A DNA stretch of 20,951 nt from a virus, in the IMG/VR virus record IMGVR_UViG_3300023180_000485, positions 1 to 20,951 of that record. One strand, given 5' to 3'. Under the pieces are notes generated by a model. That model saw only the letters and a list, made by a program, of their open reading frames with translations, did no database searches and was not told where the DNA came from. The position numbers were made by a program, and so were the translations under genes. How positions within the stretch are numbered: position 1 is the stretch's first letter; the number at the start of each line of letters is the position of its first letter. Positions 11,367-20,465 of this stretch are shown here, piece by piece.

Positions 11367-12071
11367 CTAATTAACAATAAAGATTAGTCCCTCCTTTAAT
11401 TGTTTCTTATATTTTTGGTATCCTATTTTCTTTTCTTTTAAGTAAGATACAACACTTTCCCAAGTATTTTCTCCATCACTCACTCTTACATTTTTTGATG
11501 TTGTGAGTGCTTTTTTATGCCCTTCAGTAAGCTTTGTTCCATACCTAGGATTTCCTTCACCAGAGTACATCTTACTAAACTTCTCACGGACTTCTGGTTT
11601 ATACATTGGATTGTATGATTTATCTTTCATCTTTTCACTTCTCATATCGCAGAACTTATCGTTTCTCATAACGACTTCATAAATTCCTGCCCTTTCACTT
11701 ACAAAAAATCTTCCTTCAATATTTGTATTATAATAATCGTCAGTCATTAGAACATCTCTTTTAAATTGTTCCATAGTTTCATAATAAGACATTGATTTTT
11801 TGTGAGGACATAGGTAGAGTATTTCTCTCAAAAACTTATCTTCACCAAGAAGTTTTACATCTTCATTTAATTCATCACAAGATCCAAAATATTTTTTCCA
11901 ATCACTTTCTTTTGTTTTTCTTCTACCAGTCTTTTTATCTTTTCTCCTTGTCCAAAAAGATTTTTTACCAACATATTTTCTATCATTTGTTAGATTTGTT
12001 ATGAGATAAACAAATCCTTCAATTCCTTTAGGAGCCTCTATGAATTCGTTTTCGTTATATCTCCAAGACAT
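11367..12071 (-). CDS. GIY-YIG homing endonuclease with NUMOD3-like repeats
   Basis: This is the only convincing minus-strand gene. Start chosen at the ATG at 12071 (MSWRYNENEF), 234 residues; an ATG at 12089 is only five bases from its late promoter. Residues 19-43 hold the GIY-YIG core: GFVYLITN, KYVGKKSFW and Arg42/43. WKKYFGS (58-64), LREIL and YNTNIEGRF (114-122) follow the SegE-type pattern. Two NUMOD3-like DNA-binding repeats follow (about 146-165, NPMY; 173-192, GNPRYGTKLTEGHKKAL), then a basic helical end. It should cut a specific DNA site and spread by repair. It lies antisense between the two halves of a related nuclease gene. Confidence 0.88.
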   Translation of the reverse strand: MSWRYNENEFIEAPKGIEGFVYLITNLTNDRKYVGKKSFWTRRKDKKTGRRKTKESDWKKYFGSCDELNEDVKLLGEDKFLREILYLCPHKKSMSYYETMEQFKRDVLMTDDYYNTNIEGRFFVSERAGIYEVVMRNDKFCDMRSEKMKDKSYNPMYKPEVREKFSKMYSGEGNPRYGTKLTEGHKKALTTSKNVRVSDGENTWESVVSYLKEKKIGYQKYKKQLKEGLIFIVN

Positions 12072-12094
12072 AAAAATACTTTCTACCATAAAAA

Positions 12095-12374: not shown

Positions 12375-12634
12375 AAAATTACTATGAGCCTCTTTCGAAA
12401 CTTAAAGAAGAAATTGAACAATTGGGTAGACAAAATTTTAGTCGAACTATCCTATCATTACATAAAACAAAGGGCAAAACAAATTTCGAAGAAACCAGAC
12501 AACTCTTTGTCAACGGAGTCCTCACAGAAAGCCTTGACAACGGAGAACCAGCATTCTACAATAGTAACATCCTCAACAGATACTTCAGAAAAGATTACTA
12601 TGAATGCCCAAATTCATCCACTAGCTCAAGTTAA
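12368..12634 (+). pseudogene. C-terminal fragment of the GIY-YIG nuclease gene
   Basis: The frame is open from just after a TAA at 12365-12367 and reads KNYYEPLSKLKEEIEQLGRQ, then NFSRTILSLHKTKGKTN, and FYNSNILNRYFRKDYYE. It matches the part of SegE-type nucleases after the W-K-x-Y motif and aligns with residues 59-121 of the antisense endonuclease (KKYFG, LREIL, YNTNIEGRF). There is no ATG at its start. With the N-terminal fragment at 11231, about 32 codons of the original gene are missing. The 3' end overlaps the next gene's ATG at 12600, as it would in the intact gene. Codons here are often C-ending (GTC, AAC, CTC), unlike the neighbours. Confidence 0.8.
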
Positions 12635-12815
12635 AGAATGGTCTATTAATCGGATTCATAAACTTGCAGAAGGTGGAGTAGAATCTCAGTTTGATGCTGT
12701 GGCGATTGCTGAAGAGTTTGATGAGTGGATTAATGCTGAAGAAAATGGGGAAACATTAAAATATATTTGTTTGATGGACCCAGATTTTGGAGAACAGGAA
12801 ATCGATACCATTTGA
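12600..12815 (+). CDS. Hypothetical protein, 71 residues (possible longer form from 12384)
   Basis: From ATG 12600 the protein reads MNAQIHPLAQVKEWSINRIH and then an acidic helical part (FDAVAIAEEFDEWINAEENG). The frame is also open upstream to an ATG at 12384, which would give 143 residues, but the added 72 residues are the shifted frame of the nuclease fragment, so the short form is the likely ancestral gene. No Shine-Dalgarno is seen for either start. No domain is recognised. Its stop codon TGA lies in the -35 hexamer of the next promoter. Confidence 0.6.
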   Translation: MNAQIHPLAQVKEWSINRIHKLAEGGVESQFDAVAIAEEFDEWINAEENGETLKYICLMDPDFGEQEIDTI

Positions 12816-12840
12816 CAAGATAGAATTTTTCCTGTACAAT
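12812..12840 (+). promoter_or_regulatory. Sigma70-type early promoter in front of the tRNA block
   Basis: TTGACA at 12812-12817, a 17-nt spacer, and TACAAT at 12835-12840. This is a near-consensus host promoter; transcription should start near 12847, at the edge of the first 46-nt palindrome (12851), and run into tRNA-Tyr. The -35 contains the stop codon of the preceding gene. Confidence 0.8.
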
Positions 12841-12850
12841 GTAATTGATT

Positions 12851-12896
12851 GGTATTCATCCTGGAAAACTCTTGTTAGTTTTCAATACATAATACC
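12851..12896 (+). repeat. 46-nt nested palindrome element, copy 1
   Basis: Arms in order: GGTATT, 8 nt, AAAACT, loop CTTGTT, AGTTTT, 8 nt, AATACC. The outer pair (GGTATT/AATACC) and inner pair (AAAACT/AGTTTT) are both fully complementary, and both 8-nt internal loops start with CA. It lies between the promoter at 12812 and tRNA-Tyr, 10 nt before the tRNA. Four more copies with the same spacing occur downstream. Confidence 0.85.
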
Positions 12897-12906
12897 TAAA
12901 TTGGAT

Positions 12907-12988
12907 GGGTAGGTGTCCGAGTGGTTAATGGAGGCGGACTGTAAATCCGCTGGCTCTGCCTACGGGGGTTCAAATCCCTCCCTGCCCA
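12907..12988 (+). tRNA. tRNA-Tyr (GTA)
   Basis: Acceptor stem GGGTAGG/CCTGCCC, anticodon arm with loop CTGTAAA (anticodon GTA), long variable arm as in class II bacterial tyrosine tRNA, T-loop TTCAAAT, discriminator A. No CCA is encoded. Confidence 0.93.
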
Positions 12989-12990
12989 TT

Positions 12991-13021
12991 GACAATCTAC
13001 ACTTTATGTGTTATGATTGTC
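12991..13021 (+). other. Hairpin between tRNA-Tyr and tRNA-Arg
   Basis: GACAATC (12991-12997) pairs with GATTGTC (13015-13021), and inside it ACAC pairs with GTGT around a TTTAT loop. There is no T-run, so this is more likely a processing signal or spacer structure than a terminator. Confidence 0.55.
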
Positions 13022-13025
13022 TCAT

Positions 13026-13099
<74 letters not shown>

Positions 13100-13102
13100 C
13101 TT

Positions 13103-13308
13103 GGAACTTCGACGGAAGTTCCTTAGGGTGTGACAGAATAACCTTAGTGGTCAAGCACGAGGTAATGTATAGTACGACCGGCTGTGGTGGCCGCCATGTG
13201 ACTGGGAGACCAGAGACATGAGAATCCTTACCAAGGAGTCCGAAAGTTCTAGGAATTATTTCTTCTATCAGTGAGACCTTCCTAGTTGTGAGTATGATAG
13301 AAACTCAC
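13103..13308 (+). ncRNA. Candidate structured non-coding RNA between tRNA-Arg and tRNA-Gly
   Basis: This spacer of about 220 nt has no ORF and is richer in G+C than neighbouring spacers. Pairings seen: GGAACTTC/GAAGTTCC (13103-13110/13115-13122); GGTAA/TTACC (13161-13165/13228-13232); CGGC/GCCG (13179-13182/13190-13193); CATGT/ACATG (13195-13199/13216-13220) enclosing GA/AG and CTGG-GAGA-CCAG, a GNRA-closed hairpin. Further on, CTAGGAA/TTCCTAG (13249-13255/13279-13285) crosses TTCTATCA/TGATAGAA (13263-13270/13295-13302), a possible pseudoknot, with GTGAGT/ACTCAC (13288-13293/13303-13308) as an alternative. It would be co-transcribed with the tRNAs. It is not recognised as RNase P RNA, tmRNA or a known riboswitch. 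Confidence 0.55.
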
Positions 13309-13319
13309 CACCCAACCAT

Positions 13320-13391
13320 GCGGATGTAACTCAACGGTAGAGTCACAGCCTTCCAAGCTGTTGGTTGCGCGTTCGAATCGCGTCATCCGCT
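13320..13391 (+). tRNA. tRNA-Gly (TCC)
   Basis: Acceptor GCGGATG/CATCCGC, anticodon stem ACAGC/GCTGT with loop CTTCCAA (anticodon TCC), T-loop TTCGAAT, discriminator T. No CCA is encoded. Confidence 0.95.
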
Positions 13392-13401
13392 CTTGGTAGT
13401 C

Positions 13402-13498
13402 CCTAGCGATTAACTAGGTAGACGCCAAAGGAAGTTAAGTCAAAGAATCGAGACAAGCAGACAATGCCCTTTGAACTGGTGTAAGTCCAGTAACTTCC
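13402..13498 (+). ncRNA. Candidate structured RNA with tRNA-like 3' half
   Basis: After tRNA-Gly there is a hairpin CCTAG/CTAGG (13402-13406/13414-13418), then a three-way-junction pattern: closing stem GGAAGTTA/TAACTTCC (13430-13437/13491-13498), TCAAAG/CTTTGA (13440-13445/13469-13474), and ACTGG with CCAGT around a 7-nt loop (13475-13491). The last arm sits exactly where a T-arm would sit relative to a 7-bp acceptor stem, but the loop reads TGTAAGT and no proper D- or anticodon arm is seen, so it is not a standard tRNA. Confidence 0.5.
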
Positions 13499-13524
13499 TA
13501 TATTATATTCTTCTTTTGAAGTTT

Positions 13525-13728
13525 ATGAATAAATACAAGTTCGGTGGACATGAATTAACATCTATCAATATTTGCCGACTACTAAGTGAGTTGGAAGGTT
13601 CTTATACACTTCTCAAATACTTGGGATTTGAGGAAGATATGAATACGATGGATGAGATGAAGAAGAGATATTATAAACTCTACTTCAAAACTTTAAAGGA
13701 AGAAAAACAAAAAAATAATCCTCTGTAG
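13525..13728 (+). CDS. Small hypothetical protein overlapping tRNA-Asn
   Basis: Start at ATG 13525 (67 residues): MNKYKFGGHELTSINICRLL, then a helical acidic-basic segment ending in KTLKEEKQKNNPL. A TTG at 13471 is in frame but lies inside the structured RNA. The last ten bases, including the TAG stop, are the first ten bases of tRNA-Asn, so the gene and tRNA share sequence. It is helical and has no recognised domain or clear Shine-Dalgarno. Confidence 0.6.
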   Translation: MNKYKFGGHELTSINICRLLSELEGSYTLLKYLGFEEDMNTMDEMKKRYYKLYFKTLKEEKQKNNPL

Positions 13729-13790
13729 CTCAGCGGTAGAGCAGGGAGCTGTTAACTCTCTGGTCGCAGGTTCGAATCCTGCCGGGGGAG
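13719..13790 (+). tRNA. tRNA-Asn (GTT)
   Basis: Acceptor TCCTCTG/CGGGGGA with G-U pairs, D-arm GCTC/GAGC, anticodon loop CTGTTAA (anticodon GTT), T-loop TTCGAAT, discriminator G. Its first ten bases overlap the end of the preceding small gene. Confidence 0.95.
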
Positions 13791-13795
13791 TTTAG

Positions 13796-13803
13796 TATAA
13801 ATA
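13796..13803 (+). promoter_or_regulatory. T4-type late promoter (TATAAATA)
   Basis: An exact TATAAATA six bases after tRNA-Asn and 29 nt before the ATG at 13833. It gives the zinc-finger-like gene late transcription within an otherwise early-looking region. Confidence 0.65.
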
Positions 13804-13832
13804 AAACTAAATATTTAAAAAATGAATATATC

Positions 13833-14090
13833 ATGGAACCAATTAGAATTAGATGTAAGAGTTGCAGTAAAGAATTAGTAGGACATCAAACAAAAACAGT
13901 AAGTTGTGGATGTCCCAATATGGCAACTATACGGGGAGAAAAAATATCGGCAGTTGACTTATCTAAGGTTATTATGCTAAACTTATACAAAGAAGAAAGA
14001 AAAAAGAATTTCTTAACTCAAGAAGACATTGCTTGGCAACAGGCAAGAAGGGATCGAAAAGTTCGTAAGTTGGACTTTGAAGTCCGTTAG
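13833..14090 (+). CDS. Small zinc-ribbon-like protein
   Basis: 85 residues. The N-terminal half has Cys8-x2-Cys11 (CKSC) and Cys25-x-Cys27 (CGC), a spacing compatible with a small zinc ribbon; the middle is ISAVDLSKVIMLN and the end is a basic helix (ARRDRKVRKLDFEV). I recall this Cys pattern with GEKISAVDLS in small cyanophage proteins of unknown role. The late promoter at 13796 fits a late product. The last codons contain a short hairpin (GGACT/AGTCC, 14072-14085), and a 46-nt palindrome begins two bases after the stop codon. Confidence 0.7.
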   Translation: MEPIRIRCKSCSKELVGHQTKTVSCGCPNMATIRGEKISAVDLSKVIMLNLYKEERKKNFLTQEDIAWQQARRDRKVRKLDFEVR

Positions 14091-14092
14091 TT

Positions 14093-14138
14093 AGTATTCA
14101 ACCAGTAAAACTCTAGTTAGTTTTCAACGCTTAATACT
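14093..14138 (+). repeat. 46-nt nested palindrome element, copy 2
   Basis: Arms: AGTATT, 8 nt, AAAACT, loop CTAGTT, AGTTTT, 8 nt, AATACT. Compared with copy 1, the outer pair changed from G-C to A-T at the end position on both sides, so pairing is kept. It starts two bases after a stop codon and is followed 13 nt later by copy 3. Confidence 0.85.
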
Positions 14139-14151
14139 CATAAAATCAGTT

Positions 14152-14197
14152 GGTATTCATGCCTTAATACTCTCGTTAGTATTCAACAAGTAATACC
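14152..14197 (+). repeat. 46-nt nested palindrome element, copy 3
   Basis: Arms: GGTATT, 8 nt, AATACT, loop CTCGTT, AGTATT, 8 nt, AATACC. Here the inner pair has the compensated change AAAACT/AGTTTT to AATACT/AGTATT. It ends six bases before the first base of tRNA-Ser. Confidence 0.85.
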
Positions 14198-14203
14198 CAT
14201 TTT

Positions 14204-14288
14204 GGAAAGGTGACCGAGTGGTTTAAGGTAGCAGTCTTGAAAACTGCCGAGGTGAAAGCCTCCGTGGGTTCAAATCCCACTCTTTCCG
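14204..14288 (+). tRNA. tRNA-Ser (TGA)
   Basis: Acceptor GGAAAGG/TCTTTCC (one G-U), anticodon stem GCAGT/ACTGC with loop CTTGAAA (anticodon TGA), long variable arm (class II), T-loop TTCAAAT, discriminator G. Confidence 0.94.
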
Positions 14289-16249: not shown

Positions 16250-16447
16250 ATGACACCTTATGAACTTCGCTTTGAAATTTTCAAACAGGCGAATGGGTTG
16301 GCACAAGATGAATACCATTGTAAATTTGCATTGGTAGAGCAATGGAACAATGAAAATTCAGTTAAAATGGATTATCCGGAGTTTCCAACTTATGCCGAAA
16401 TCGAAAAACTTGCAGATAAAATCAATTCATTTGTAAGTTCAAAATAG
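16250..16447 (+). CDS. Small conserved phage protein beginning MTPYELRFEIFKQA
   Basis: Start at ATG 16250 because AGGAG (16238-16242) is seven bases upstream; an in-frame ATG at 16244 is only one base away from it. The 65-residue protein reads MTPYELRFEIFKQANGLAQD, then FALVEQWNNEN, YPEFPTYAEIEKLADKI and NSFVSSK. I recognise this start and the YP.FP...EI..LA pattern as one of the commonest small proteins in T4-like cyanophages, often in several copies; function unknown. The AC-rich leader and strong Shine-Dalgarno suggest good translation. Confidence 0.75.
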   Translation: MTPYELRFEIFKQANGLAQDEYHCKFALVEQWNNENSVKMDYPEFPTYAEIEKLADKINSFVSSK

Positions 16448-16451
16448 GTTT

Positions 16452-16532
16452 CTTGCCATTCCTTAAAAGGGCAAGTGGTGCGGATGTGGAGGTTACTCCC
16501 GCCTGGTTTCCAATTTCCAGTCAAAGAATTGG
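16452..16532 (+). ncRNA. Structured non-coding stretch ahead of the sugar operon
   Basis: Between the small gene and the terminator lies about 107 nt with no gene and higher G+C. Pairings: CTTGCC/GGCAAG (16452-16457/16470-16475); GCGG/CCGC (16480-16483/16499-16502), overlapping the inner hairpin GGAG-GTTA-CTCC (16488-16499); CCAATT/AATTGG (16510-16515/16527-16532), with CTGG/CCAG as an alternative. It would be the 3' end of the upstream transcript and not the sugar operon leader if the promoter at 16566 is used. Confidence 0.4.
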
Positions 16533-16554
16533 TGGCGAGCCTGATAGTTATCTT

Positions 16555-17543: not shown

Positions 17544-18184
17544 TTCATTGTATAGGAGATAGTCATTCTGCAGTCTTTAGTGGGGAAGAAAAGATGCAAC
17601 CCACCTGGCCAGAACCAGCATCAAATCTTTTACCATACTTTACTTCTTACCGGATTGGTCCAGCAACTGCATATCAATTAGCAAATAAACAGCAGTTAAT
17701 CGAATATCTTATAAGTACAATTAGATTCAATCCTGACGATAGATTAATGTTTTGTTTTGGTGAAGTTGACATTCGAGCACATTTGATTAAGCAATCTCAA
17801 ATGCAAGATAGGCCAGTAGAAGATCTTGTGATAGAATGTGTAAGTAGATATGTTAGTGCTCTAGAATACTATAAAAAATTTGATGTAGATATTTTAGTTT
17901 GGGGTCCAATTGCTTCTTGGTCAGATGAGAAAGTATATACTGGAGGACCTTCATTTGGTACAAATGTAGAACGAAACAATGTCACAAAACTTTTTAATGA
18001 TTATCTAAAAAATGAATGTGATGATGTTGGATTTGAATTTATTTCAATTTTTGAAAAGATGTTGAATGAAGACTTTACTACAAAGAGTGAATTGTTAGAT
18101 GATTGGGAAGGATCGCATATGCATTTGTCTCAAAGGGCAATGCCATTAATCTTGGAAACGTTTAAGGATAGGGAATTGATTTGA
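17540..18184 (+). CDS. SGNH/GDSL-like hydrolase or acyltransferase-type protein
   Basis: 214 residues starting directly with a block I motif: [13 protein letters not shown], with the probable nucleophile Ser8 in [14 protein letters not shown] at 71-79 is a likely block III, and EGSHMHLS at 190-197 carries the C-terminal acid-x-x-His region (Glu190/His193 or His195). SGNH proteins in sugar clusters often remove or add acyl groups on glycans, which would fit here. The start overlaps the previous stop codon (ATGA) and its own stop overlaps the gmd ATG (TGATG), so translation is coupled. The family is fairly clear, the substrate is not. Confidence 0.62.
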
Positions 18185-19185
18185 TGAAAAAAGTAGCTTT
18201 AATTACTGGTATTACGGGTCAGGATGGTTCGTATCTTGCAGAACTTCTATTGGAAAAGGGATATGAGGTTCATGGAATTGTTCGTAGAGCATCTCTAATC
18301 AATACACATCGAATTGACCACATTTATGACCAATTGAATCTTCACTATGGAGATTTAACTGACTCTACGAATCTTGTTGGAATTATTCAAAAAGTTCAAC
18401 CAGATGAGATTTATAATCTTGGTGCTCAGAGTCATGTAAAAGTTTCTTTTGAGATGCCAGAATATACTGGTCAAGTTGATGCTCTAGGAACACTCCGCGT
18501 ATTAGAGGCAGTTCGACTTCTCGGTATGAATGATGTTCGGATTTATCAAGCATCTACTAGTGAATTGTACGGACTAGTTCAAGAAATTCCTCAAAAAGAA
18601 ACAACGCCATTTTATCCACGTTCGCCATATGGTGCCGCTAAAATTTATGGATACTGGATTACGAAAAACTATCGTGAATCGTATGGAATGTATGCTTGCA
18701 CGGGGATTCTTTTTAATCATGAATCTCCTCGCAGAGGTGAGACATTTGTTACTCGTAAGATTACTAGGGCGCTAAAAGCAATTGCAAATAATGAACAGGA
18801 AATTCTTTACCTAGGAAATCTAAATGCAAAACGGGATTGGGGACATGCTAAAGACTTTGTAGAAGCAATGTGGCTAATGCTTCAGCAGGATACTCCTGAT
18901 GATTATGTTATTGCTACGGGAAAACAGTATTCTGTTCGCGAGTTTGTAGAAAAAGCAGCACCTTATTTTGGGATGCAAATTACTTGGAGAGGTGAAGGAT
19001 TAGGTGAAATTGGATATGATGTTTTTACCGGAAAAGAGGTTATTAGAGTAGACCCTAAATATTTCCGCCCTGCAGAAGTTGAAACCTTACTTGGCGATGC
19101 TTCTAAGGCAAAAGAAAACCTGGGATGGGAACCCAAAACAACATTTGATGATTTAGTAAAGGACATGTGTGAAAATGAACTTTGA
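18184..19185 (+). CDS. gmd: GDP-mannose 4,6-dehydratase
   Basis: 333 residues. An N-terminal Rossmann motif [19 protein letters not shown] gives GxxGxxG; STSELYG holds Thr125 and Glu127, and YGAAK holds Tyr149 and Lys153, the catalytic set of the extended SDR dehydratases. [18 protein letters not shown] and [14 protein letters not shown] are GMD signatures. It converts GDP-mannose to GDP-4-keto-6-deoxymannose, the precursor of GDP-fucose, GDP-rhamnose and GDP-perosamine. The length is a little under the usual size (E. coli 373), mostly at the C-terminus. The ATG overlaps the preceding stop codon. Confidence 0.96.
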
Positions 19186-20131
19186 TTCTAAAATTTTGGT
19201 TGCTGGCGCAAATGGAATGGTTGGGTCAGCAATTGTGAGAAACCTAAGAGCAAAAGGATATCAAAACATTATTGAAGGTACTCGATGCAGAGTTGATTTC
19301 TGCGATCAGGAAGAGACCAAAGCATATATGGAAATGATGAAGCCTGATTATGTGTTTGTTGCTGCTGCTAAAGTTGGCGGCATCATGGCAAACAATAATT
19401 TTAAAGGAGACTTTCTTTATCAAAATCTGCAAATTCAAAATAACATCATTCATTATTCCATGGTAAATGATGTTAAAAAACTTTTATTCCTTGGTTCTTC
19501 CTGCATTTATCCAAAGATGTGCGAACAACCAATTAAAGAAGAATACTTGATGACTGGTCCTTTGGAACCAACAAATGATGCATACGCAATTGCTAAGATT
19601 GCTGGTATCAAAATGTGTCAGTCTTATAGGGAACAATATGGATTCAATGCCATTTCATTGATGCCTACCAATCTTTATGGTCCCAATGATAACTTTGATT
19701 TAGAAACTTCTCATGTTCTTCCTGCAATGATTGCAAAGTTTCATTTTGCAACTACTGAAGGATACCTTATTGATATGGGTGGTCCTTGGTATGGAACGGT
19801 AAGACTTTGGGGAGATGGTTCTGCTCGAAGGGAGTTTCTTCACGTTGATGATCTTGCAGAAGCTTGTTTTACTTGTATGATGAATTATAATGATTCTGAG
19901 CATATAAATGTTGGGACTGGTGAGGATATTACTATTAAAGAACTTGCTCAAACTATTTCTAGAGCTGTTGGTTTTCCTGGAGATATTGAGTGGGACAAAA
20001 CTAAACCAAATGGTACACCAAGAAAAGTTTTAGATGTAAGTAAAATTAAATCTATTGGATGGGAACCTAAAATTTCTTTGCTAGAAGGAATTAAAAAAAC
20101 TTATCAGTGGTACGAAGAAAATGTCAAATAA
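19175..20131 (+). CDS. fcl: GDP-L-fucose synthase (epimerase/reductase)
   Basis: Start at ATG 19175 (318 residues); a GTG six bases upstream is possible. It overlaps the end of gmd by 11 nt. [14 protein letters not shown] is the NADP-binding GxxGxxG. GSSCIYPK carries Ser109 and Cys110, AYAIAKIAG carries Tyr137 and Lys141, and [12 protein letters not shown] with SHVLPA holds His180: the full catalytic set of the 3,5-epimerase/4-reductase (wcaG). [10 protein letters not shown] is also typical. It turns the Gmd product into GDP-L-fucose. Together with gmd and the ManA/ManC-type genes downstream it supports a dedicated GDP-fucose pathway. Confidence 0.96.
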
Positions 20132-20465
20132 AGTAGAAAAACCTTGGGGAAGTTATGAAAACCTCATGGATGAGGAATATGGTAAGGTAAAGAGAATTAT
20201 CATTAAACCAGGAGAATCTCCAAGTTATCAATATCATCACAAAAGATCTGAAGTTTGGGTAATTTTAACTGGACTTGCAAAGATTAAAATTGATGGTAAA
20301 GTTACCTGCCATAATCCTGGAGAAATTGTTATCATCCCAAAAGAACATAAGCACCAAATTGAAAATATTGGAGATGATGATTTGATTTTTGTTGAAGTTC
20401 AAGTTGGTGAATATTTTGGTGAAGATGATATTGTAAGGGTTGAAGATAAGTATGGAAGAGTATAA
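20121..20465 (+). CDS. Mannose-6-phosphate isomerase, type II cupin domain only
   Basis: 114 residues, a single cupin: KPWGSYENL, VKRIIIKPGE, YQYHHKRSEVWVILTGLAKI, then IIPKEHKHQIEN and the signature VEVQVGEYFGEDDIVRVEDKYGR. Likely metal ligands are His39, Glu44 and His78 (with Gln37). This is the C-terminal isomerase half of bifunctional ManC (AlgA) enzymes as a separate protein. It would convert fructose-6-phosphate to mannose-6-phosphate at the start of GDP-mannose synthesis. A phosphomannomutase is not in the window. It overlaps fcl by 11 nt and the next gene by 14 nt. Confidence 0.88.
   Translation: MSNKVEKPWGSYENLMDEEYGKVKRIIIKPGESPSYQYHHKRSEVWVILTGLAKIKIDGKVTCHNPGEIVIIPKEHKHQIENIGDDDLIFVEVQVGEYFGEDDIVRVEDKYGRV

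Follow-up and report, generated by a model that had tools for sequence, protein, structure and literature searches.

A manA RNA packed between two tRNAs of a T4-like cyanophage, with a possible role as a free-standing RNA

A manA RNA as a member of a tRNA array

The spacer between tRNA-Arg(UCU) and tRNA-Gly(UCC) in the window, by which we mean the whole stretch of 20,951 nt that was analysed (IMG/VR record IMGVR_UViG_3300023180_000485, positions 1 to 20,951), holds a manA RNA (RF01745) of a T4-like cyanophage, and this RNA is one member of the tRNA array. It folds with a pseudoknot and is packed tightly against the tRNAs on either side. Its relatives stand beside tRNAs or start at a promoter-like site, and the RNA occurs as a single copy at changing loci. 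We lean towards the view that the window copy is co-transcribed early, excised as an RNA of ~219 nt and active in trans as a free-standing RNA, rather than being a switch in cis.

The Rfam model RF01745 matched 13105-13318 over its full length (model positions 1-192 of 192) with 77.5 bits, at a cut-off of 55.2 bits (E 1.8e-18), and our own model, R1, matched 13102-13314 at 124.5 bits. Because the Rfam match is full length and above the cut-off, the element is a member of a known family. An unknown RNA family was thus rejected, and the initial annotation, which had proposed an Rfam search and could name no family itself, was mistaken on that point. The closing stem and the inner helices of the manA model are present, and its conserved loops (UGAC-GAA, GUGGUG, ACC, GUA...AA) were found in the window as TGACAGAATAA and GTGGTG.

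manA RNA entered the literature in 2010 as a riboswitch candidate, found in marine metagenomes, two gamma-proteobacteria and cyanophages, and the genes listed downstream of it were for mannose and fructose metabolism, nucleotide synthesis, Hsp20 and photosynthesis (PMC2864571, Weinberg et al. 2010); our literature search found no function assigned to it. The window copy shares with the RNA of that description the family, the helices and the range of marine samples and cyanophages. The 2010 RNA, however, was a candidate riboswitch in 5' UTRs (PMC2864571), whereas the window copy sits tightly between two tRNAs and has no gene immediately after it.

Fold and pseudoknot

No ORF of at least 50 aa overlaps the spacer, and none starts within 150 nt downstream of the RNA, where tRNA-Gly intervenes. 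The folding energy of 13101-13319 is -69.2 kcal/mol, compared with -55.7 ± 4.5 kcal/mol in 200 dinucleotide shuffles, none of which was equally stable (z = -3.0). The dense pairing in an ORF-free spacer that had been noticed from the letters is thereby borne out. The positions of the structural elements are given in Table 1.

Table 1. Coordinates of the manA RNA, its structural elements and the adjoining tRNAs and promoter-like sites in the window
Feature	Position	Strand	Basis or remark
Sigma-70-like promoter TTGACA-17-TACAAT	12812-12840	+	Consensus match only; upstream of tRNA-Tyr
tRNA-Tyr(GUA)	12906-12989	+	
Sigma-70-like promoter TTGACA-17-TATGAT	12989-13017	+	Consensus match only; TG before -10
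tRNA-Arg(UCU)	13026-13100	+	Adjoins manA RNA on the 5' side
manA RNA (RF01745)	13101-13319	+	Predicted excised RNA of ~219 nt between tRNA-Arg and tRNA-Gly
5' hairpin GGAACUUC-GACG-GAAGUUCC	13103-13122	+	Rfam match and folding
Long-range closing stem GGGUG/CACCC	13126-13130 / 13309-13313	+	Helix 1
Stem	13141-13145 / 13159-13163	+	Helix 3; double changes in 5/5 pairs
GAGA-tetraloop hairpin with GA/AG internal loop	13195-13220	+	Sequence; helix 6
Stem CTAGGAA/TTCCTAG, perfect	13249-13255 / 13279-13285	+	Helix 8
Pseudoknot, 8 bp, UUCUAUCA/UGAUAGAA	13263-13270 / 13295-13302	+	Covariation
Hairpin stem GUGAG/CUCAC	13288-13292 / 13304-13308	+	Helix 11; 100% of cells paired
tRNA-Gly(UCC)	13320-13392	+	Adjoins manA RNA on the 3' side

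The structure that the initial annotation had placed at 13103-13308 is real, but it runs slightly past that end, with the closing stem reaching 13313. The hairpin with the GAGA tetraloop and the GA/AG internal loop was located as described (CATGT-GA-CTGG-GAGA-CCAG-AG-ACATG), and the two proposed stems of 7 and 8 bp are both perfect pairings and do cross each other. The arms of the 8-bp pseudoknot read TTCTATCA and TGATAGAA as DNA; they cross helix 8, and the 3' arm lies in the loop of the hairpin 13288-13308.

In an alignment of 59 manA sequences, the closing stem was paired in 99.7% of cells with double changes in 4/5 pairs, and helix 8 had double changes in all six counted pairs. Across the 49-pair manA structure, which was drawn on the same alignment of related sequences on which it was tested, 88.3% of cells were paired (70.0% in shuffles and at most 47.7% when the structure was slid), the covariation score was 0.498 against 0.181 in shuffles, and 41 of the pairs had changes on both sides. 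For the pseudoknot alone the score was 0.657, compared with 0.167 in shuffles and at most 0.141 in slid versions, and double-change cells numbered 71 against 22 in shuffles. Its arms take the forms CUGU/ACAG, AUGU/ACAU, ACAUUA/UAAUGU and UGUCA/UGACA among homologues, where the window has UUCUAUCA/UGAUAGAA. Since this covariation exceeds that of both shuffled and slid versions, the pseudoknot, which carried a question mark ('pseudoknot?') in the 2010 description (PMC2864571), is now well supported. The covariation search among homologues that the initial annotation had called for thus supports the stems and the pseudoknot. Its interpretation of a functional structured RNA with a real pseudoknot, lying in a tRNA transcription unit, is strongly supported apart from the family assignment, given this covariation and the position next to tRNAs that homologues have retained.

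Chance folding of an unconstrained G+C-rich spacer, for which nothing speaks except the modest spacer length, has next to no probability; the shuffles (z = -3.0), the E value of the Rfam match, the double changes in 41/49 pairs and the pseudoknot test rule it out. Many loop bases are also invariant in the manA alignment. A conserved mini-ORF (GUG-ACU-GAA-UAA) in the first loop was seen in many copies and was rejected as such, since its stop codon is lost in others (e.g., RB11-B and L006).

Two contexts for one 5' end

Homologues were collected by pattern scans of viral contigs and by BLAST of phage records, which gave at least 152 manA loci after profile filtering. Collapsing the matches listed at 90% identity within one context left 61 representatives, whose class proportions are not population frequencies, the contig scans being pattern-based. 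Among these, a tRNA ends -1 to +2 nt before the RNA in 17/61 (the window included), a tRNA begins 2-12 nt after it in 17/61, and tRNAs flank it on both sides in 11/61; six kinds of tRNA occur upstream and seven downstream in the matches listed. A sigma-70-like promoter with at most three mismatches, ending at the 5' border of the RNA, was found in all 42 testable representatives without a 5' tRNA and in none of the 17 with one, again among the matches listed, while the same criterion was satisfied at 164 of 1220 random positions (13%). This distribution suggests that the same 5' end is apparently produced either by transcription start or by a tRNA cut. The tree of the RNA contains at least three switches between the tRNA-type and the promoter-type context.

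On the 3' side, a terminator was found behind 15 of 92 RNAs in the matches listed. For many promoter-type copies the distance to an ORF downstream is 10-60 nt, in most cases with no terminator recognizable, and some tRNA-type copies (e.g., L085 and L006) are followed by an ORF after 11-35 nt. At six loci (L039, L040, L041, L058, L076 and L129) an intrinsic terminator, such as ACACCCTACAAAGGGTGTATTTTTTT, stands 0-3 nt after the RNA; having a promoter as well, these copies look like complete small RNA genes. At L046, L101, L105 and L072, a sequence starting GCGGATGTCGTAT... just 3' of the RNA resembles a tRNA-Gly(UCC) with an odd D arm. ARAGORN does not call these sequences, and the tRNA-adjacent class is therefore probably undercounted.

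In the window, the promoter-like site nearest to the RNA is 8 nt upstream of tRNA-Arg, and the + strand between 12600 and 14264, the spacer included, showed no terminator-like site. On these grounds the RNA is probably co-transcribed with the tRNAs. Beside the array, on the opposite strand (11367-12089, - strand), lies a gene for a GIY-YIG homing endonuclease of the SegE type (Pfam PF19835).

A single copy at changing loci

Phages of marine cyanobacteria frequently carry manA RNA. When 20 complete phage genomes were searched with RF01745, 19 had exactly one copy each, and S-BM3 had none. The single copy stands behind gp23 in P-RSM4, P-HM1, S-SSM5, metaG-MbCM1 (where the gene is annotated gp24) and P-RSM1, behind pstS in P-SSM3, P-SSM4 and S-SSM4, near talC in P-RSM6, P-TIM40 and P-TIM68, before gp32 in P-HM2, behind regA in P-SSM2 and before tRNA-Gly in S-SSM7. 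P-HM1 and P-HM2, which bear one species name in the records, carry manA RNAs of different clades at different loci. In P-TIM68, the next gene on the same strand lies ~390 nt past the RNA, beyond an ORF on the opposite strand. The first ORFs downstream of manA RNAs fall into 32 sequence clusters among the matches listed, and those of ten representatives belong to nine different Pfam families (DUF6561, mannose-phosphate isomerase cupin, gp32, transaldolase, plastocyanin, pyrimidine-dimer glycosylase, Hsp20, ThyX and ferritin-like). Downstream talC genes are seen repeatedly, in the tRNA-type as well as in the promoter-type context. Among bacterial and archaeal genomes (84,980 species), one exact core pattern, which undercounts the RNA, matched only three contigs, consistent with a mainly viral distribution.

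Some manA RNAs have a ManA-type cupin gene downstream, and the window also contains a gene (20121-20465) with a similar product. Control of this gene by the RNA was rejected, as it lies 6.8 kb away behind a wcaG RNA and sugar genes. The wcaG RNA (RF01761, 84.4 bits) is located at 16444-16546, before a gene cluster with two nucleotide-sugar epimerase-like genes (18181-19185 and 19169-20131). A wcaG match was present in all four tRNA-type manA phages tested (one below the cut-off) and in none of 15 of the promoter type.

A candidate free-standing RNA

We propose that a unit including tRNA-Arg would be transcribed early from the host-type promoter at 12989-13017. Processing of the tRNA 3' end after tRNA-Arg would free the 5' end of the RNA and RNase P cleavage before tRNA-Gly its 3' end, so that a stable RNA of ~219 nt would be released. 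Early in infection this free-standing non-coding RNA may then act in trans, with a protein or the translation apparatus as its probable binding partner. For the family as a whole, we see about an even chance that manA RNA has been mislabelled as a cis-regulator and is a single-copy, mobile, free-standing RNA, made from its own early promoter or from tRNA precursors and acting in trans on the host. For a cis-regulator, one would normally expect several copies in a genome, linked to a single type of gene; an element that has one copy, changes loci and brings its own start is easier to explain as a small RNA gene. From the placement among tRNAs and the one copy in each genome, a separate RNA species with fixed ends is to be expected; a search for published cyanophage RNA-seq yielded nothing usable that mentions manA RNAs.

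The discoverers' proposal, which is also the type given by Rfam, is a riboswitch-like cis-regulatory leader that senses a metabolite or the state of the cell and controls the gene behind it; in its tRNA-embedded form it would control readthrough or processing of the downstream tRNA. We regard this as possible and rather unlikely. The many promoter-type copies that stand 10-60 nt upstream of an ORF, within its leader, agree with it, as do downstream genes that match the 2010 list and in part recur (e.g., talC, gp32-like and DUF6561), but these genes span at least nine unrelated Pfam families in addition to structural genes, and there is one copy per genome. In the window, the tRNAs are tight on both sides without an ORF, tRNA-Gly rather than a protein gene stands directly behind the RNA, and no expression platform (terminator or masked ribosome site) was seen next to the RNA, a terminator-like site being absent from the spacer and from the rest of the + strand of 12600-14264. 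Nevertheless, the many copies shortly upstream of an ORF, the repeated presence of talC in either class and the scarcity of terminators make a leader function or a double role possible for manA RNA. A structural cassette, that is, a folded 5' cap protecting the following transcript or a spacer helping to cut the tRNA array, appears improbable. It would suit a 5' hairpin that sits at the promoter or right after a tRNA and an RNA found before very different genes; a general stabilizer, however, would be expected in several copies and with relaxed sequence, as opposed to one copy per genome and many invariant loop bases. Moreover, tRNA arrays manage without the RNA, as in S-SSM7, where tRNA-Arg and tRNA-Leu lie 4 nt apart with no insert and manA RNA is at another place.

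Related systems and other RNAs of the arrays

In the Synechococcus phage S-CREM1 (OP535465), the manA RNA likewise lies directly between two tRNAs (Leu and Asn) of a tRNA array, with a wcaG RNA nearby (PMC9964418), which means that such a placement was already visible in the public record. There it is annotated by Rfam as cis-regulatory, and the accessible part of that report passes over the tRNA placement without comment (PMC9964418). GOLLD and ROOL are structured phage RNAs near tRNA islands, of unknown function, that form RNA nanocages (PMC12286853). They resemble the window's manA RNA in being phage-encoded near tRNAs, an analogy of working only, as they are much larger and belong to unrelated families; the Rfam search of the window stretch matched manA and neither of these two. 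Small stable RNAs right behind tRNA-Arg in a tRNA cluster are also known from T4, whose species 1 and 2 RNAs (rnaC and rnaD; AF158101) measure 139 and 119 nt, compared with ~219 nt predicted for the manA RNA. Homology to rnaC and rnaD was rejected, as neither the Rfam manA model nor R1 matched in T4, a result that does not exclude deep homology. Confirmation of the free-standing role would take manA RNA out of the riboswitch class and place it with the few phage RNAs that are linked to tRNA arrays.

Directly after tRNA-Gly, at 13393-13499, stands another structured RNA, which Rfam does not contain. It consists of a hairpin and a tRNA-like domain with a GGAAGUU/AACUUCC acceptor and the motif GCAGACAAUGC. 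The tRNA-like domain is nearly invariant in 34 loci, in 33 of which it stands directly behind tRNA-Gly, while the hairpin before it is variable. This motif is shared with tRNA-shaped RNAs that we observed in cyanophage tRNA arrays at L004:2733-2804 (S-CREM1), L029:10328-10404 and S-PM2 164658-164729, where the phage records carry no annotation. In these RNAs, the anticodon arm is replaced by the fixed sequence GGCAGACAAUGCACUU, and the core is constant with variable acceptor and T stems. The Rfam tRNA model aligns with the body and not with the anticodon arm (28.3 bits, just under the cut-off), and ARAGORN calls them tRNA-His(AUG).
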